DNA of 50,869 nt, taken from a virus. Positions 2,854-32,899 of the stretch are shown piece by piece. The stretch is taken from positions 1 to 50,869 of IMG/VR virus record IMGVR_UViG_3300035180_000260; one strand, given 5' to 3'. The notes under the pieces are model-generated. The model did no database searches, was not told the DNA's origin, and worked only from the letters and a program-made list of their open reading frames with translations. Both the position numbers and the translations under genes were made by a program. The stretch's first letter is position 1. The number at the start of each line of letters is the position of its first letter.

Positions 2854-5800
2854 GTCTGATCGGGTGCCTTGCTAAAGCCGCAGATGCCATTCTGCCGAGT
2901 GACAAGCTCATACTGCAGAACATGGTTGACAAGTTTGTCAAACAAGGCGAACCGCGTGATCGCGCAGAAGTTCGTGCTGCAGAGGCAATGCTTGCCACAT
3001 ACGAGGCGCAGCGCGCAGACATCGCTCATCAAATCGAAAAGCAGTTGGGTGCCTTCGGATACGCCATCGGCGAGCCTACGCAAAAAGCCGAAGCCAAACC
3101 TGCAGTCAAGACAGAACCAGTAGTCAAGACAGAACCCGCATCGAAAGAACAGGAAGCCACGCAAGTCGCGCCAAAACCAGAAGCCCGCATCACCAGGGAC
3201 GAACCCACTGCATTGGATACCCGTGTGGCTGAACTGCGGCCAAAACTCGGTGAAAAGCAAGCCACTCGCTTGGACAAGCTGCTGGATCGTTATAAGAACG
3301 GCGAGATCGACGCGCAGCGTCTTGGTGACGAACTCGAAACGCTTGAGAAGCAGGCGTTCCCGCCTGAGCAGGGCGGGCAGGGGGTGATGTTTTCCAGACT
3401 AAACCGCCAAGGTAAAAATGCGAGTTATTTCCACGCCACGCCAGCAGAGATACAGTTCATTAAAAGTGGAACATTTAATGAATACCTCAAGGATTTTATG
3501 GTTGATAAGGGGTACAAATGGCATCAACGCCCTGACGTGTCGGTGTTTGAAGGCGAGATTGTTGTTCCCACACATGACATTAAAATTGCCCTTGAGTTCG
3601 CAGAATGGTTGGCAGATGCACCCGACCACCGTAGTGAAATCCCCCCGCAAATGCGCGACGGGACGTTCGCGCGCGAACTACGTAAGGCTAGTGATCCCAA
3701 AGTTGAAGGTCAGGACGCAAACACCATTCGCTCCCGTATGCGCAAGCTGTTCGTTAACCCTGCCATGTTCGACCGCAGGGTCACAATTGTACAAGACGAA
3801 TCTGAAATTCCTGCTAGGTTTACTGCGTCCAAGCCTACTGAGGCCGGGTCTAAGCGTCTCGGTTTCTACGACCCGAATACAGGCCATGTGTGGCTGATTG
3901 CCAGCTACATCCAGAAAGGTCGCGAGTTAGGTGTGTTCCTGCACGAAGTTGGCGGGCACATGGGGATGATGGACCTGCTTGGTAAAGAAAACTACGATGC
4001 ACTGGTGAACCAGATTAAGGAGTGGGCTAATGGAGAAGGGTCAATCGAGAACGAGATCGCTGCCGCAGCATGGCTGCGTGTGAGTGATGCCGAAACCGCA
4101 CTTGGCAAGAAGATGAGCGATGCAGTACGCAATGACGAACTGATCGCATATTTTACCGAGGAGGCTGTCAACCACGGTATCAACCCGACAGCTATCGCAA
4201 GTCAGCCGAAGGTCATGCAGCAGTGGTTTATCCGCATGTGGAACGCAGTCAAAGCGGCTGTACAGAAACTTGGCCTTGATCCAAAGTCGCTCACCGCACA
4301 AGATGTAGTTGACTTGGCATATGGCGCGGCTCGTCTCCAGTTGAGTGGGTCCCACACCGACATCGAGGCTGCTAACAAAGCCGCTGGCCGCCCGATGACG
4401 GAACCTGCGTTTGTTGATAAAGGTTCGCAGCCTTTGCACTCCATCTCGCTCCCCAAAGGCAAGTTCTCCAAAGCTGGCGAGATGGTCAACGATTACCTTC
4501 TCGATACGAAGACCACGCTCGATAAAGTAAAGCTCGGCTGGATGACCCTTGAGCACATGGTTGCTCGCATGGGGGACAGGATGCCCGCGCTTGAACAGTA
4601 CGTCAAGGCCATGCACAAGATGCAAGGGGATGCAAAAGACATCGTGTACAAAGCATCCTTCATCGACATGGAGTGGGGGAAATTCAACGACGAGAACGCC
4701 GCGAAACTTGGCGATGTGATGGTACGCTCGACCTTGGCTAACTTCGATCCAACCGTGGATAAGCCTAAGACTGCCGAGGAACAGGCGATTGTCGATGATC
4801 TTAACAAGGTTCGCGACGAGCAGGGCAAGGCTGACACGGCTGTCGCACTGTTCAAATCAGTACGGGACTTCTATAAGCAGCTTCACGAACAGAAACTTGA
4901 CATTCTACGCAAGGCGTCGAAAGACGGAAAACTCGATGCGCGTACTGAGCGAATGTTTGCAGAAGTGAAGGGGCCGTACTTTCCGCTTATGCGCATGGGC
5001 AAATGGTACGCCGTTGGTATGTCTGACGAGGTTGCCCGTCTGACCGAGCAACATGAGAACGGTGAGATCAGCCCTGCCAACAAGAAGCGACTCTACGAAT
5101 TGCGGAAAGACGGTACCCATTATACGACACGATCTTTCGACACGCGTAGTGAAGCTGAGAAATTTGCCCGTGAGTCAGGATACGACAAGACTTATGTCAA
5201 CACGCAGGAGGAACGCACCAGGCAAGCTATACGGTCACTGCCTGATTTCGAGCAGTTCGAGGCGTATCTTGGTGGGGAGTTCGACTCGGAAACTCGGAGG
5301 AAACTGAAAGACATCATGGCCGAGATGTACTTCGACCTATTGCCGCAAAACAGCGGGTTGAAACATGCCATGAAGCGGGAAGGAGTATTCGGTGCTACGT
5401 TCGGGCGTAGGGAATTTGCCAAGTCTTCGTACACCTCGGCACACCTCATCAGCCGCTTGAGGAATGCTAACGACCTCAACGCAGCCATGCAGGCCGTTAG
5501 AAACGCTGGTGATAAAGGCAATATCGAAGGGCGCACGGTTTACAACGAGTTGCTGAAACGCTCTGACCTTGCGATGGATATTGAAAATCCCCCGCAGTGG
5601 GTGAACTTCGCCCTTACTGGCAGCTACTTGGCGCATCTTGGCTTGGCTCCGTCGTACTACTTAAACAACCTGCTGCAGACTCCGATAATTACGACTCCGT
5701 GGCTGGCCGCTCGCCACGGGCTTGGAAATACGACGATTGCGCTGACCAAGGCGCTGGCCGATACCAAGGACATTTTGAAGTTCAGCCATGCCAAAGGTAC

Positions 5801-7256: not shown

Positions 7257-10166
7257 TCAACCGTGCGACTCGTCGTGTGCCCGGTTATCGCGCACAATTC
7301 GCGTCACGTTCCCATCAGTCACGAATGCCGTACCGCCAGTGGCCTTTGCGAAATTGAACTCGTAGACCCTGACTCGACCGGTTGGGATGTTGGTGCCTTT
7401 GCCAAGGTACTCGCGATCCTCGCCGATGATGTAACCAGCTTCTTTCAACTGCTGCTTGAACTGAGTTGGGACGATGTTACGGTCTCTGCACCACTCGGTG
7501 ACTGCCGAGGCTGCGACGTACATCAGACTGTCCTTGATGGCAATGCGGGCACACGGGTTGGCTTTGAGACTCTCGCTAACAGTTTCTACCTCGGCGTCCC
7601 TGGGCTTACGTCCTATGGGAAAGCTCCGTGTGATGATTGTATGGTTGTACAACCAACTCAGGAACATGCCGATGTTGTCCTCGATCATCGCGTGGCGCTC
7701 GGTGAATGCACGACGTAGAGTCTGCACATGCTGCAACGCCCACTTCGTCATTGCGTTCACGTCCCACTGGATAAGCCCGAGTTTCTTTGCGATGACCGCA
7801 GCCACATGGGCAAAGGCGATGGTATCGACGTAGAAGCGTTCGCGAGAATCAGCAGCGATATTACTACCGAGCTTGGCTCGCAGTTCCGCAATTTTGTCCC
7901 TGATCGCATCTGCGTTCTGCATGATATACGGAAGATACTTTTTAGCAGCAACACCACGGATGTGGAACAGCTTGTGCTCCAGCAAGTCCTTCATGTTGGT
8001 ACCACCAAACACTCGCTCGATCTCACGCTTTGTAAGTCCGCCGATCTCGAAGCATCGTGCGCTTGTGGCGTCAGACACATCTTTCTTCGCAGCGTCGTAT
8101 AGGATGTCAGTAATGTTGATGTTTGACGTGCCGAAATAAATGCCAGCGAACGGCGGTGCGGTTTCACGGAACTTGCCATTCGTCATCAGACCAGACTTGA
8201 CGATACCGTTGGACAGCGTGTACATGAGTGGCACGAAGTCTTTGCTGTCCCGTTGGGTGATCTCGTCGAACAGAAGCGGTACGCCGTTGTACATGCTCGC
8301 CAGTGCGAACAAGGCGTTCAAAGTAGAGCCACCCTCGCTACCTGCGTTGGTCATCAGCATCTTCGGATCACCGTAGATCGTAGCTGCTGCTTCACACACC
8401 GAAGACTTACCTACGCCACCTTCGCCGGACAGAACGATCGGGATACCACGGTAGTTGTGGAAGTTGCACAACGGCACAAGCGGCGACGCAAAACCAGCAG
8501 CGATAACGAACTGGTACTTCTCTGCATCAGGGCGGTTATAGGCAAGGTCGATCAGCCGCACCCACTCGTCGAGGTCGCCTTTCGGCTCGTTCTCATACGC
8601 TTTGCCAGAGTTGCGCACGTTGTCCGTAACAAGGACTTCCTCGGTGTCGCCGTTGGCAAGGAACGCGGTATCTCCGACGATGAACTTATCTCGATCTTGA
8701 TCCCACCCGTAGCGGTCGTAAGTTACAACCTCGTAGTTTTCGGCGCACAGTTGGTTGACATAGGCTTTCATGAGGTCCATTGCATGTTTCGCTCCGAAGA
8801 TGATGATTTCATACTGAGCCAGATACTTGCTCAATCCACGAGGATCGGGGATCAGCATTTGCGGTAGGTCAAATTCGCGCCAGTAGTGGTTGGCTACGCT
8901 CATGCGAATGCGAAGGTTCCATGTCCCATCTTCTCCTCGCACCCGACTGGTGGCGTAAAAAAGCGTGTCGCTGAACGCCACTTCCTCGTACACTCCATCT
9001 TTGTCAGGTACGTTCTGGTGCATTTGCCCATTACGCCAGCTAAACCCTTCGGGCAGAGTGAGGGTCTCAGCCTGCTCCTTCGATTGCGTAACGACTTCTA
9101 CTACTTGCGGAGGTTCGATCCTATGACCGAGTTGGATTGGCGACGTGATCTTGCCGTTGTGCTTACATGACTCACAAGCCTTACTGTTTGTTGCCGTACT
9201 CAGCTTGCTACATGAGGTAGGGCCATAGGCCCACTGCTCCAACTTGCGTTGCGTGTCATCGTGGCTGTACGAAGGGTGCCCTGCGCCCCACTCGTGTGCA
9301 AACTTCTCACCGTCTTCGCAGTTTTTCAGAACGCCGAGTACGGCATACCACACCGGCTCAGACACGTTACCTGCGCTGTTTCGAAACGTCTGCACAATCG
9401 AGCAATGCTTGACGACTTCTTCTGCGTAGGCTGGCGGGTACTCGACTTCTCCCATGCCCATGAGTGCTGCATTCTTCGATGGGGTCGGGTCGCGGCGAGT
9501 GTGCGATACGTGGTTGTCGATGATGTACCGGTTGAGTGCTGCAGCAATATCACCCTCGTGGACAGGATCAGCGTCGCGCAGCAGCCGAACAGGTTTATCG
9601 TACTTGTAGTTGGTAGTACCAACCGGGCGCAGCACACGGTTTGCGTCAGATGTGCATACGTGGTCGGCTTTCAGACCGAGATGGATGCAGGCAGATTTAA
9701 GCTGTGAAGCTACTGTAAACCACAACTCTGGCGAGATGGCATCCTTGAGAGGCCAGTACGTGTGTAGCCCTCTACCAGAAGACACGAGCATTGGCGCTGG
9801 TAGACCGACTGTCGTGCAGAACTTGAGAACTTCGCCTGCGGCTTCACGCTGTGTGGAGTAAGAGCCGTCTTTTGCTACGTCTACATCTAGCCAGAACGAC
9901 TTGAGCGCCTTGATGTTGTCCGCCTTGCCACGAGACGGCTTTCCAGCATTGGTGTAGTGGACATCTTTCCTGGATGCCAGCACGTGAAAGACGTTTTTGC
10001 CTTGTGCGCTGTGTTTGAGCGCAGCTTCCGCAACGTCATCAAATTCTCCGTCACCGAACGCCTCATGTGTTATGACTTTGTCGCCGGTTCTTGTTATTAC
10101 TTCTACTGCTAAAAACAACTTCCCGACACCGGGAATAATCTTCTTCAAGAATGTTACCGCGTCCAT
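7257..10166 (-). CDS. Primase-helicase (AEP primase plus superfamily 3-like ATPase), 969 aa
   Basis: The N-terminal third looks like an archaeo-eukaryotic primase/polymerase: metal-binding WLDVDVAKD (D94, D96), SSGRGLHTYW with H135, and a third acidic site near D174 in CTSDANRVLR. Cysteines at 319, 331 and 334 could bind zinc. The C-terminal half carries a helicase-type ATPase with Walker A GEGGVGKSS (581-589) and Walker B LLFDE (631-635), as in DUF927-type phage helicases. It would unwind DNA and prime synthesis for the phage polymerase at 17401-19263. It is the last gene of the early operon, separated from its upstream neighbour by 132 bp containing a weak terminator. GGGGG before the ATG is its ribosome site. 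Confidence 0.88.
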   Translation of the reverse strand: MDAVTFLKKIIPGVGKLFLAVEVITRTGDKVITHEAFGDGEFDDVAEAALKHSAQGKNVFHVLASRKDVHYTNAGKPSRGKADNIKALKSFWLDVDVAKDGSYSTQREAAGEVLKFCTTVGLPAPMLVSSGRGLHTYWPLKDAISPELWFTVASQLKSACIHLGLKADHVCTSDANRVLRPVGTTNYKYDKPVRLLRDADPVHEGDIAAALNRYIIDNHVSHTRRDPTPSKNAALMGMGEVEYPPAYAEEVVKHCSIVQTFRNSAGNVSEPVWYAVLGVLKNCEDGEKFAHEWGAGHPSYSHDDTQRKLEQWAYGPTSCSKLSTATNSKACESCKHNGKITSPIQLGHRIEPPQVVEVVTQSKEQAETLTLPEGFSWRNGQMHQNVPDKDGVYEEVAFSDTLFYATSRVRGEDGTWNLRIRMSVANHYWREFDLPQMLIPDPRGLSKYLAQYEIIIFGAKHAMDLMKAYVNQLCAENYEVVTYDRYGWDQDRDKFIVGDTAFLANGDTEEVLVTDNVRNSGKAYENEPKGDLDEWVRLIDLAYNRPDAEKYQFVIAAGFASPLVPLCNFHNYRGIPIVLSGEGGVGKSSVCEAAATIYGDPKMLMTNAGSEGGSTLNALFALASMYNGVPLLFDEITQRDSKDFVPLMYTLSNGIVKSGLMTNGKFRETAPPFAGIYFGTSNINITDILYDAAKKDVSDATSARCFEIGGLTKREIERVFGGTNMKDLLEHKLFHIRGVAAKKYLPYIMQNADAIRDKIAELRAKLGSNIAADSRERFYVDTIAFAHVAAVIAKKLGLIQWDVNAMTKWALQHVQTLRRAFTERHAMIEDNIGMFLSWLYNHTIITRSFPIGRKPRDAEVETVSESLKANPCARIAIKDSLMYVAASAVTEWCRDRNIVPTQFKQQLKEAGYIIGEDREYLGKGTNIPTGRVRVYEFNFAKATGGTAFVTDGNVTRIVRDNRAHDESHG

Positions 10167-17400: not shown

Positions 17401-19263
17401 TCAGCAAGCACCTAGATTTGCCAGTGTGCTACGAACTTCACTCACGTACCGATCGTAGTCGATGTCCAACGGAAACTCACCAAGTTGCATGAGCGCCTTG
17501 GACCCGTCAGACGAAGCTACCTTGTTGCCGTTCTTCTTGTAAACGATCGGGCCGGGTGACTGCGTACTATAGTACCACCTAACAACCTTGCCTAGATAGT
17601 TGTTGTCCTGCATACCGCCACCGGACACGGTGCGAACGACCAGGAACATAGTTACGTCGTCACAATCTCGCACGAACGCCTCTACGTCTGCGCCTGATGT
17701 CAAGTAAGCTACTGCCGCTTCGGAGACTATAGTCGCAGTGGGGTTCTTCATCAACCCTGGTTCGGCGAATGCACCCTTGCGCTTGACTGACCCATCAGTC
17801 TTGATAGCGACATAGTTGTTCACATCCCGCGAATGTAGCGCCCGGTACTCGGTGTCCTCAAGGTTGAACCCGGTCAAGTTCTGCCACCATTGGGTGACGA
17901 TCTCCATGTCCTGCACACGTTCGACCGGGCACTTGATGACGATACCGTCAGTGTTCGCAGATACCACCGGGATGCTGTTCGACTCCAGCTTCTCTATGAG
18001 CATGAGCAGAGCGAGTTGTCCGGTGATGGTTGTCTGGATCAGCAGGTGAGGTGAGTACAGTACGCTGTATGGGCTGCCGAACTTGCCATACGAGCCGTTC
18101 AGGTTGAGCTTCTTACTATCGACGCTGAGTTTCTCTTTAGCGTACTCGGCCCTGAGTTCTTCGAGTTCTGCGCTGTCCCCGGTAGAAGTCTTTTCCAACT
18201 GTGCGATCTTGGCAGCGAGCTTGGCGCAATTCGCCTTTGACGCCACCCTACCGTGGTAAATCTCCGAGTACACGTCAAGAAACTCTTCCCCGATGTGCAG
18301 CGGGTACAACCGCTGACCAATGATGATACTCGGGTAGTAAGACGTTACGTCGTAATCACGAAGGACGAACGTCCCATCAACCACGTGCGATACCTTGTTC
18401 TCGCTCGAATGAAGCCCACCGATGCCCATGCGGTACTCACTTCTGCCGATGGTGACTTTCCTGCCATCCAGTGTTGCTGGCAGCTTCACCACACCCTTTT
18501 CGTCTACGGAAAACTCAGTGTCAAGAACATCCGTGAAGATTTCCTGCAATGGCGCAGTTCTGAACTTCATCCACTCTGGAGCGCGGTACTTGAACGGCGT
18601 CGTGTTGATAGCGGGCTTACTGAGTCGTGAACCGCGTATCTTCTCGATCTCGCTGCGTATGACTGCTTCGGCGATCTGAGCATCTGACTTCGACCGCAGG
18701 TCTTGCCCGTACTGTTCGCTCATCTGTTCACGCAGCTTGATCTGTCCTACGAGCTTGTTGTGCAAGTCGATCGTAGTATCAAGGTCGTTGATGCAGTACT
18801 CACGCAAGGTCGCTCGATCAGCTTCAGAAATACTGGCGTCAGGTTCGATCGGCAAGTCTTGCAGCTTGGGACTGTGCATCCGTCCGCCATACAGTTTCAA
18901 ACTAACTTGCACCCCAGGTGCCACGTCATACAGGTCGATATGGTTGAGTTGCGGGATACGAACGGTGTACCGCTTCTCGAAATTCCACGGGGTTGCCTGC
19001 TCGTTCAGGATCAAGTAATCCGAAGCCTGCTTTAGTTCTACGTTGTCGGCCCCTGCAAGCGCCAGCGTTATGATAGGCACGTCGTAGTTACGGCTGTTGA
19101 AACCCACCAACTCGAAGTTCTGCATCACGTAGGCGAGCCGCCTACGGTCAAGATCGTGGCCCGGATACATCTCGAAGTAGTGGGTCTTCTTGTTGTCGAT
19201 GGCGCGGAACATCACGAGGAAATAGTCGCGGTAACATTCCACGTCGAAAGCTATACGCTTCAT
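17401..19263 (-). CDS. Family B DNA polymerase with proofreading domain, 620 aa
   Basis: The exonuclease motifs are FDVEC (D7, E9), VGFNSRNYD (N56, D61) and YCINDLDTT (D160, D162). The polymerase motifs are DYDVTSYYPS (motif A, D305), KKLNLNGSYGKFG (motif B, 384-396) and SANTDG (motif C, D439). Motif C is the variant with Asn in place of the first Asp of DTDS. The gap between motifs A and B, about 75 residues, is too short for a large protein-priming insertion, so priming by the phage primase-helicase is expected. This is the compact form found in some phages of Proteobacteria and Firmicutes. The start overlaps the winged-helix gene stop as ATGA. Confidence 0.93.
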   Translation of the reverse strand: MKRIAFDVECYRDYFLVMFRAIDNKKTHYFEMYPGHDLDRRRLAYVMQNFELVGFNSRNYDVPIITLALAGADNVELKQASDYLILNEQATPWNFEKRYTVRIPQLNHIDLYDVAPGVQVSLKLYGGRMHSPKLQDLPIEPDASISEADRATLREYCINDLDTTIDLHNKLVGQIKLREQMSEQYGQDLRSKSDAQIAEAVIRSEIEKIRGSRLSKPAINTTPFKYRAPEWMKFRTAPLQEIFTDVLDTEFSVDEKGVVKLPATLDGRKVTIGRSEYRMGIGGLHSSENKVSHVVDGTFVLRDYDVTSYYPSIIIGQRLYPLHIGEEFLDVYSEIYHGRVASKANCAKLAAKIAQLEKTSTGDSAELEELRAEYAKEKLSVDSKKLNLNGSYGKFGSPYSVLYSPHLLIQTTITGQLALLMLIEKLESNSIPVVSANTDGIVIKCPVERVQDMEIVTQWWQNLTGFNLEDTEYRALHSRDVNNYVAIKTDGSVKRKGAFAEPGLMKNPTATIVSEAAVAYLTSGADVEAFVRDCDDVTMFLVVRTVSGGGMQDNNYLGKVVRWYYSTQSPGPIVYKKNGNKVASSDGSKALMQLGEFPLDIDYDRYVSEVRSTLANLGAC

Positions 19264-30771: not shown

Positions 30772-31137
30772 TCATTCCCCTTTGTTGTAAAACGCCCAAT
30801 CATCTGCACGCTCAGGCGATACGTCGAAAGGCTCGGCGTCGTCAAACTCATGGAACATCTCGCCCTTGCTGTTGTAGTAATAGCGGGCCTTCTTGTCCCC
30901 AAGGTCACGATGCCCACGCCGTTCGAGGATGGCTTGCTCGCGCGGGATTTTTCCCGGTTTGACTTTGGGTTTGTCGGCTGCTTTCTCCACTGGTGGGTGG
31001 AGTGGTTCCAGCGTTTCGGGGTCGAGCTTGTAGTACCCACACAGCAACCGGCTGATGAGGCCAGAACGGTTTTTCGCCGTGCTGAGTAGGTCGATGAGTT
31101 TAGGGTCAAGGGAAATAGTCAAGAGCTTAGACGCCAT
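30772..31137 (-). CDS. Ribbon-helix-helix regulator with extended C terminus, 121 aa
   Basis: The start at 31137 gives MASKLLTISLDPKLIDLLST then NRSGLISRLLCGYYKLDPET, a strand-helix-helix pattern of Arc/MetJ/CopG proteins. The first 45 residues match the next upstream gene product closely, so the two arose by duplication. The C-terminal part is basic, then acidic (RADDWAFYNKGE). It is the second gene of the early operon and probably binds DNA near the operon promoter. Confidence 0.7.
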   Translation of the reverse strand: MASKLLTISLDPKLIDLLSTAKNRSGLISRLLCGYYKLDPETLEPLHPPVEKAADKPKVKPGKIPREQAILERRGHRDLGDKKARYYYNSKGEMFHEFDDAEPFDVSPERADDWAFYNKGE

Positions 31138-31354
31138 GCTCATCGTTCTCCAGCTTGTCGATATGTACAAAGTCGGTCACACGCTTGACGTAGTCGATAG
31201 GAATGAACTCGTCAACAATAGGCTTAAGCGTATCGGGGTTAAGATTGTAGTGTGCGCACAACAGGCGAGTGACCATTGCCGACTTGTTATGCACGTTTAC
31301 CATGTAGGCGACTACTTCTTCAGGGATCGTCAGCGTGACGTGCTTAGATGCCAT
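31127..31354 (-). CDS. Ribbon-helix-helix regulator, 75 aa (first early gene)
   Basis: MASKHVTLTIPEEVVAYMVN followed by NKSAMVTRLLCAHYNLNPDT is a ribbon-helix-helix domain paralogous to the downstream gene. AAGGAA lies 8 bp before the ATG at 31354. It is the first gene behind a consensus sigma70 promoter. It is well placed to regulate its own operon, possibly through the small inverted repeat at 31377-31392 or the repeats further upstream. Confidence 0.72.
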   Translation of the reverse strand: MASKHVTLTIPEEVVAYMVNVHNKSAMVTRLLCAHYNLNPDTLKPIVDEFIPIDYVKRVTDFVHIDKLENDEHGV

Positions 31355-31376
31355 CGTGGTTTTCCTTTCGGTTAGC

Positions 31377-31392
31377 GTCGAAAAATATCGAC
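31377..31392. promoter_or_regulatory. Inverted repeat at the early transcript start
   Basis: GTCGA and TCGAC flank a 6-base AT-rich spacer. The element lies 9 bp or more downstream of the -10 box, overlapping the expected start of the early transcript. It is a candidate operator for the ribbon-helix-helix proteins encoded directly downstream. Confidence 0.4.
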
Positions 31393-31400
31393 ATGGGAGA

Positions 31401-31429
31401 AGCGTAGCACAGGCTCGTTCGGGTGTCAA
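31401..31429 (-). promoter_or_regulatory. Sigma70 promoter of the early operon
   Basis: On the minus strand a perfect -35 TTGACA is followed by 17 bp and the -10 TACGCT, with TGC giving an extended -10. The start would fall near 31394, about 40 bp before the first regulator gene. An A/T-rich stretch lies just upstream of the -35 box. Confidence 0.8.
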
Positions 31430-31507
31430 AAATATTTGTAACCTTTTTGCGAACGGCTTGTAAGTGGCTTGTAAGCGATTAACTAACGGTTTACTAGCAA
31501 AAATCCC

Positions 31508-31830
31508 TGTCCCAAAAGGGGCGGCTGGTTTACCAGTGTGCAGGATTTACCTACAGCAACCAGCATTTGTTCCAGCATGTGGGACAAACTTTTGGGACAA
31601 AAAAAGCATGTGGGACAAATGGCTTTGTCCAATATTCCGCCTTTCAAATCATATACTTATACTTTTGGGACAAAGAAAAAAAATAAAACCACGCTAGGGA
31701 AATTTTTTGTGAGAAGATTTTTTTCTGCACCGTGGCAAACCGCGAAAATTTCGGGTTATCCTCTCAAAATCGCGTCCCGCTGTCCCAAAGCTTGATTTAT
31801 AAGGACTTTTTTGGGACGTGGAATGTCCCA
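31508..31830. repeat. TGGGACA heptamer cluster (iteron-like)
   Basis: Seven exact TGGGACA heptamers occur in 323 bp: plus-strand copies at 31580, 31593, 31611 and 31666, and minus-strand copies at 31508, 31781 and 31824. A near match is at 31812. Two form inverted repeats: GGACAAA/TTTGTCC at 31613-31630 and TGGGAC/GTCCCA at 31812-31830. Random expectation for both strands is about 0.04 copies. Confidence 0.75.
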
Positions 31831-31851
31831 CATGCCGTGCCTAATGTGCCT

Positions 31852-32040
31852 TAATGCTGGTACGGGGCAAGGCTATGGTAGTTACTGTAACTCGACCAGC
31901 CCGCCTAACCATAATGTAAGCTAATGCTGGTACGGGGCAAGGCTATGGTAGTCTATGCCGGTTACTGTAACGTCGCACGTTAATGTACCTTAATGCTGGT
32001 ACGGGGCAAGGCTATGGTAGTCTCTACTGGTTACTATAAG
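31852..32040. repeat. Three 31-bp direct repeats with GTTACTGTAAC palindromes
   Basis: Identical 31-bp units start at 31852, 31922 and 31991 (TAATGCTGGTACGGGGCAAG, then GCTATGGTAGT), spaced 70 and 69 bp. Each is followed by the 11-bp palindrome GTTACTGTAAC (31881-31891 and 31961-31971), which is degenerate in the third unit. On the minus strand each unit contains TTGCCC, then 16 bp, then TACATT or CACATT, a possible promoter. Candidate tandem promoter-operator units or origin iterons. Confidence 0.75.
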
Positions 32041-32215
32041 ATCGCCAGCCGTGGACTTAGCGGAGCACGAAAACCCGGTCTTGGTTCACCCTAACCAATG
32101 CCTCAAATTCGTGCGAGAACGGGTCGCCATTGCGTTTTCTCACCATTGCCTAGGTCACCCTAGCTTGGCGGAATTTGAGCGGCTCAGAATCGGTTTTAGA
32201 ACGTTTCCAAGAAAC

Positions 32216-32233
32216 GCCCCTCTTTCGAGGGGC
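32216..32233 (-). terminator. Hairpin after the 214-aa gene
   Basis: GCCCCTC and GAGGGGC form a perfect 7-bp stem with a TTTC loop, 22 bp after the stop of the minus-strand gene at 32255. The minus strand continues GTTTCTT, a moderate U tract. A probable terminator that keeps this transcript out of the control region. Confidence 0.6.
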
Positions 32234-32254
32234 CAGACTTGGTAAAGCTCCAGT

Positions 32255-32899
32255 TTAGGCGGCGACGGCGATCGGCTTCAATTCGATTTCGTCAAGATCG
32301 GGATCGAAGTTAATCGTCCTCAACATGATGAGATATTCCATCAGATGCTTCACTTCATCGGCGGTGACTTCGCATTCCGCCAGCGGGCGCAAGGTTTCCT
32401 TCCAGGCGACGTCCTGAATCATTTCGTTAACCCGAACCGCTGCATCCGGGTCGCTTTCCTTCAGCCGCTTCACCAGCGAACCGACAGTTTTCTGAAACGC
32501 GCTCTTTGCGCGCTCATCGGCAAAGCCGGTCAATTGTTTAGGCTTATGCGGTGCCCGTTCTTTGACGGACGAATCAGCCATCGCCAACGGCGGAGTAGCT
32601 TTTGCCGTTTTGATGGCGGCATCTTGCCGCTTGTAATCCAGCGGGCCACCGATGATACTGCGGACACCGTTAGGTCCGTCTTTGGTAACATTCAACCCGC
32701 ACGCCTTGAATCGTGCGAGAACAGCAGGTTTGTCTTTCGCCAGTACGGCGACGAAAACCGCTTGGGCGAATTCCCCGTTATCTTTTGCGACGTATGCCTT
32801 ACCCACGGCTTTAACCGTGGCATTCCATACGGACTGGCCGTAATCAAAGCCGTTGGAAATGATTGACGAAACGATCGCTTGTTCGGATTTGGTCAACAT
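32255..32899 (-). CDS. Hypothetical protein, 214 aa
   Basis: AAGGA lies upstream of the ATG. The protein begins MLTKSEQAIVSSIISNGFDY and has an Ala/Val-rich helical N-terminal half. A linker follows, then a helical C-terminal domain (AFQKTVGSLVKRLKESDPDA). No motif is recognised. It forms a two-gene minus-strand unit with the 82-aa gene, separate from the main early operon, and has a duplicated hairpin leader. It may be expressed at a different time. Confidence 0.65.
   Translation of the reverse strand: MLTKSEQAIVSSIISNGFDYGQSVWNATVKAVGKAYVAKDNGEFAQAVFVAVLAKDKPAVLARFKACGLNVTKDGPNGVRSIIGGPLDYKRQDAAIKTAKATPPLAMADSSVKERAPHKPKQLTGFADERAKSAFQKTVGSLVKRLKESDPDAAVRVNEMIQDVAWKETLRPLAECEVTADEVKHLMEYLIMLRTINFDPDLDEIELKPIAVAA

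Follow-up and report, generated by a model that had tools for sequence, protein, structure and literature searches.

We consider it probable (roughly 0.7) that the region at 31508-31830 of the window, a virus record of 50,869 bp, is the replication origin of this phage, with the phage's own DUF927 primase-helicase as the most likely initiator, acting through its C-terminal domain. The original prediction had read the region as iterons beside an unwinding element and had expected a new initiator. The origin is well supported by comparison with relatives, but the new initiator and the binding proteins proposed with it did not hold up. To our knowledge, few metagenomic phages have a known replication origin. 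If our reading is correct, a common replication gene would predict the place and appearance of the origin, and would connect full-size phages with the way in which phage-inducible islands and SCC elements replicate. The cultured phages Rollin and RHph_TM3_14A make the origin reading testable.

The cluster sits in about 900 bp that contain no genes (31355-32254). Leftward RHH-like genes adjoin this stretch on one side and a leftward 214-aa gene on the other, and structural genes run rightward from 33819. The cluster had been placed directly upstream of the primase-helicase operon; it does head the leftward early genes, but the primase-helicase gene comes last among these, about 21 kb from the cluster. 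We counted 13 copies of TGGGACA in the whole window, where 6.1 were expected. Seven exact heptamers fall within 31508-31830 in both orientations (31508-, 31580+, 31593+, 31611+, 31666+, 31781-, and 31824-), as originally predicted, against about 0.04 expected in 323 bp. Equal frequency elsewhere had been named as grounds for rejecting the origin, but the other six copies are scattered singletons and the heptamer is not clustered elsewhere. Three one-mismatch boxes had been overlooked (31568- TGGAACA, 31626- TTGGACA, and 31812+ TGGGACG), and the cluster as a whole, to which no strand is assigned, comprises seven exact and three one-mismatch heptamers. By two statistics TGGGACA was the strongest-clustering heptamer in any 323 bp of the window, and random Markov genomes reached a maximum of 3-4 heptamer copies per 323 bp. 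The predicted inverted repeats are present, one pair of 12 bp (GCATGTGGGACA/TGTCCCACATGC) and one of 11 bp (TGTCCCAAAAG/CTTTTGGGACA), each exact.

The least stable 60 bp in the entire window, ranked first in a nearest-neighbour energy scan, are at 31630-31689 (73% AT), where they overlap the cluster and are flanked by boxes on both sides. We propose this segment, without strand, as the unwinding element. An AT-rich stretch had been predicted at 31655-31735, and it is 67% AT, but the least stable 60 bp lie slightly further left. Unwinding energy and GC skew had both been suggested as checks on the origin. The energy minimum of the window falls inside the cluster; the skew minimum is near the region but tracks gene direction, and skew was therefore left out as origin evidence. 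The proposed origin core (31624-31674, no strand) consists of the inward-facing boxes TTTGTCC (31624-31630) and GGACAAA (31668-31674), separated by a 37-bp spacer that is 73% AT.

Among relatives, the position of the cluster is kept, though the box sequences differ; absence of the cluster from related phages had been put forward as a result that would count against an origin. Phages with a related large terminase had dense clusters of short boxes at the same locus, with a lineage-specific box sequence: TTTGTCC(A/C) in L028, L029, L030, and L032, TTCATACA in L020, GTTTACA in L022, L024, and L025, TTTATCAC in L021, and TTGCATA in Rollin, where the cluster is at about 260-680. The genomes of G004, G008, and Rollin resemble the window in having their top cluster on, or no more than 70 bp from, their least stable 60 bp, and in G011 the local stability minimum ranked second in the genome. 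The innermost inward-facing boxes were 37-42 bp apart, on either side of an AT-rich spacer in the clearest cases, in six loci (the window, L019, L028, L029, L032, and L020). Since the L020 pair uses another motif, this spacing was seen with two motifs; wider box pairs, of 62 and 64 bp, also occur in L028 and Rollin. In the closest relative, L009, four of the seven exact heptamers are retained, and the heptamers were no better conserved than their flanks (42 of 49 versus 265 of 287 positions). Other repeats were noted as well. In the Pseudomonas phage Rollin (L017:1-500), four near-palindromes of about 25 bp, AAAAGGTAG(T/C)AA(C/G)TT(A/G)CTACCTTTT, and a half-copy lie among the TTGCATA boxes. 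In L033, the stretch immediately upstream of the terminase genes (1148-1555) consists of about 16 units of AGGATCGCC, which double as a repetitive minus-strand open frame.

We also analyzed genomes that carry the primase-helicase in a different setting. In three metagenomic genomes (G020, G021, and G022) a homologue of the window's terminase could not be detected, and the replication genes shared with them are the DUF927 primase-helicase, an SNF2-like helicase, and two nucleases. In all three, the top box cluster (AATGTTC) coincides with the least stable DNA, although in G021 a coding repeat has a higher raw count and the box cluster comes out on top after repeats lying mostly in one frame are filtered. 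The same coincidence, with weaker motifs, was found in the cultured Rhizobium phage RHph_TM3_14A, at about 19.5-20.0 kb. Three of 12 DUF927 genomes (G014, G015, and G019) were without a clear fit; in G019 the expected place ranks second for low stability and contains short TTACTCA-type repeats, and in G015 repeats flank one side of a very AT-rich stretch. In none of four control phages did the top cluster fall on the least stable DNA. In lambda the cluster test recovered the O-gene iterons as the second cluster, and in phage Y3 the first cluster was inside the replication protein O gene. In BcepC6B the top cluster was just upstream of the integrase gene, so that clustering by itself does not prove an origin. 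We refined the statistics for clusters and stability as the genomes were being examined, from raw counts to the later use of a frame filter and a composition correction. The genomes were picked by size and kinship rather than at random, and some share ancestry. For all these reasons a chance figure multiplied across the genomes is no formal probability. In RHph_TM3_14A we observed in addition that the gene annotated 'putative integrase' at L161:12239-15322 (MN988472 42239-45322) overlies a frame that matches the DUF927 primase-helicase; this phage also carries a DNA polymerase I.

The primase-helicase of the window (7257-10166, minus strand, 969 aa) matched Pfam DUF927 (PF06048) with E=4.5e-30, and a 47-sequence profile searched against PDB matched SaPIbov1 Rep (8tch, E=4e-32) and SCCmec Cch (5dgk, E=2e-24), the match ending before the C-terminal domain. 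In the predicted structure of residues 380-968 (pLDDT 86.7), the C-terminal elements resemble a winged helix, and the best Foldseek matches were SaPIbov1 Rep and Cch, followed by MCM helicases, with Cch (5dgk) the best of these. The protein thus has a DUF927/AAA+ helicase core by sequence and by predicted fold, and resembles known initiator helicases in both. It had been stated that no initiator gene could be recognised; given this kinship, there is no need to postulate a new kind of initiator. A homologue was found in each of the seven related genomes tested, and a few other replication proteins were found in nearly all of them. The binders originally proposed fared differently, as homologues of the RHH pair and of the 11640 HTH protein were found in none of the seven genomes and that of the 24720 protein in one, and none of these is therefore a good general candidate. 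The conserved layout with differing boxes suggests that the commonly carried helicase is the recogniser, although in the few sequences available we saw no covariation between the helicase C-terminal sequence and the box motif. As a separate observation, the family B DNA polymerase (17401-19263) had a detectable homologue in one of the seven related genomes, while other replication genes were shared.

The best reading of the kind of origin is the PICI/SaPI type, used here by a phage and located about 21 kb from the end of the helicase gene. In PICI/SaPI origins, two sets of short iterons surround an AT-rich stretch (PMC6092414). SaPI Rep uses its C-terminal domain to recognise iterons, as Cch2 does to bind short direct repeats, and Cch has been reported to be related to SaPIbov1 Rep (PMC7581432). 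The window has the corresponding multiple short iterons, with seven exact heptamers and three near ones within 323 bp, on both sides of an AT-rich stretch at its least stable 60 bp, and by homology it encodes a helicase of the DUF927 Rep type. The Rep-ori of PICI/SaPI elements drives autonomous replication and the origin is directly 3′ of the rep gene, whereas the window's cluster is distant from the helicase gene, is in a phage genome, and is accompanied by a primase fused to the helicase. SCCmec Cch (5dgk) carries DUF927, as does the window's helicase, but SCC elements are chromosomal, and Cch2, whose site consists of three 5-nt iterons beside its own gene, belongs to another helicase family. 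The lambda O origin likewise has an iteron cluster adjoining AT-rich DNA in a phage genome; however, its iterons are about 18 bp long and within the gene of an initiator that is not a helicase, while the window's cluster is gene-free. In the satellite P4, the alpha protein is primase, helicase, and binder of short origin iterons in one. The profile of the window's helicase, in contrast, gave no sequence match to the solved P4 alpha domain in the PDB profile search, and the region contains no P4-type GGTGAACA. We found no DnaA boxes (TTWTNCACA) in 31355-32254 and no omega/RHH heptads (WATCACW) in the region, and the RHH genes are also not conserved with the cluster.

The region may be an origin whose boxes are bound by another phage protein that recruits the helicase, for example the product of the 214-aa gene that borders it (32255-32899, minus strand). 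The position of this gene is conserved; phrog_1448 was matched in proteins of seven relatives and occupies its place in most relatives (e.g., L020:4743-5273), nearly all of the terminase relatives have such a gene next to the region, and the lack of covariation leaves the helicase untied to the motif. However, the window's own 214-aa protein had no recognisable match to phrog_1448, its predicted structure was of low confidence and uninformative, and phrog_1448 was not matched by the tested neighbours of the G020, G021, and G022 clusters. We regard recognition by such a protein as rather unlikely. A terminator-like hairpin after the 214-aa gene (32216-32233, minus strand) was detected by pattern scan only. 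Beside the cluster there are also three tandem repeats of about 70 bp (31842-32045, no strand), present in five copies in L009 (about 5190-5520) and absent from every other contig searched; we dropped them as iterons because they are limited to two phages. A DNA similarity search of phage records returned nothing for the region, a bacterial genome scan with the terminase gave no relative, and RNA families and tRNAs were not found.

On its other side the region adjoins the first RHH-like gene of the leftward early genes (31127-31354, minus strand), for which the RHH assignment is that of the original prediction and which had no match in Pfam or PHROG. This gene was found only in the window and in L009, L013, and L019, and with this confined distribution its product is not favoured as the box binder. 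Upstream of it, at 31455-31476, we noted two tandem copies of GGCTTGTAAG(T/C), 11 bp apart and near a minus-strand TTGACA, which may be an operator of the RHH-like genes. Alternatively to an origin, the cluster itself could be an operator array to which a regulator of these genes binds, in keeping with its position at their head and with the 11-bp tandem repeat closer to the first gene. We consider this quite unlikely, and less likely than an origin: the sole promoter-like sequence, which is too weak for the scan, has its nearest box about 80 bp upstream, operators would not be expected to coincide with the least stable DNA of the genome or to keep a fixed inverted spacing, and the proposed regulators are not conserved alongside the clusters. 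Repeated pac boxes are known from other phages, and in the terminase relatives about 2 kb separate the clusters from the terminase genes downstream, but a pac-like packaging site to which the small terminase binds is very improbable, as G020-G022 have box clusters on their least stable DNA without this terminase, one gene separates the region from the terminase genes, and packaging requires no melting element.

For an origin recognised by the primase-helicase, the clustering, its coincidence with the least stable DNA, the conserved position and spacing, and the helicase kinship are all computed results, from which we infer binding, melting, loading, and origin activity. The initiator would bind short boxes on either side of the most easily melted DNA of the genome, contacting them through the winged-helix-like C-terminal domain (about residues 845-968). 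The helicase may load where the two boxes face inward, at 31624 and 31668, melt the AT-rich DNA that they enclose, and then unwind and prime. Counted against this reading are the misfits G014, G015, and G019, the missing covariation of helicase and motif, the unexceptional conservation of the boxes, and a helicase gene that is distant, unlike in PICIs. More tentatively, and with somewhat less than even confidence, we suggest that DUF927 phages are a widespread group of tailed phages that starts replication at island-type origins. These would keep their paired-box geometry as the box sequence changes from lineage to lineage, so that origin and initiator co-diverge into separate specificity groups. 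In one scan, at least 588 contigs carried a relative of the DUF927 primase-helicase.
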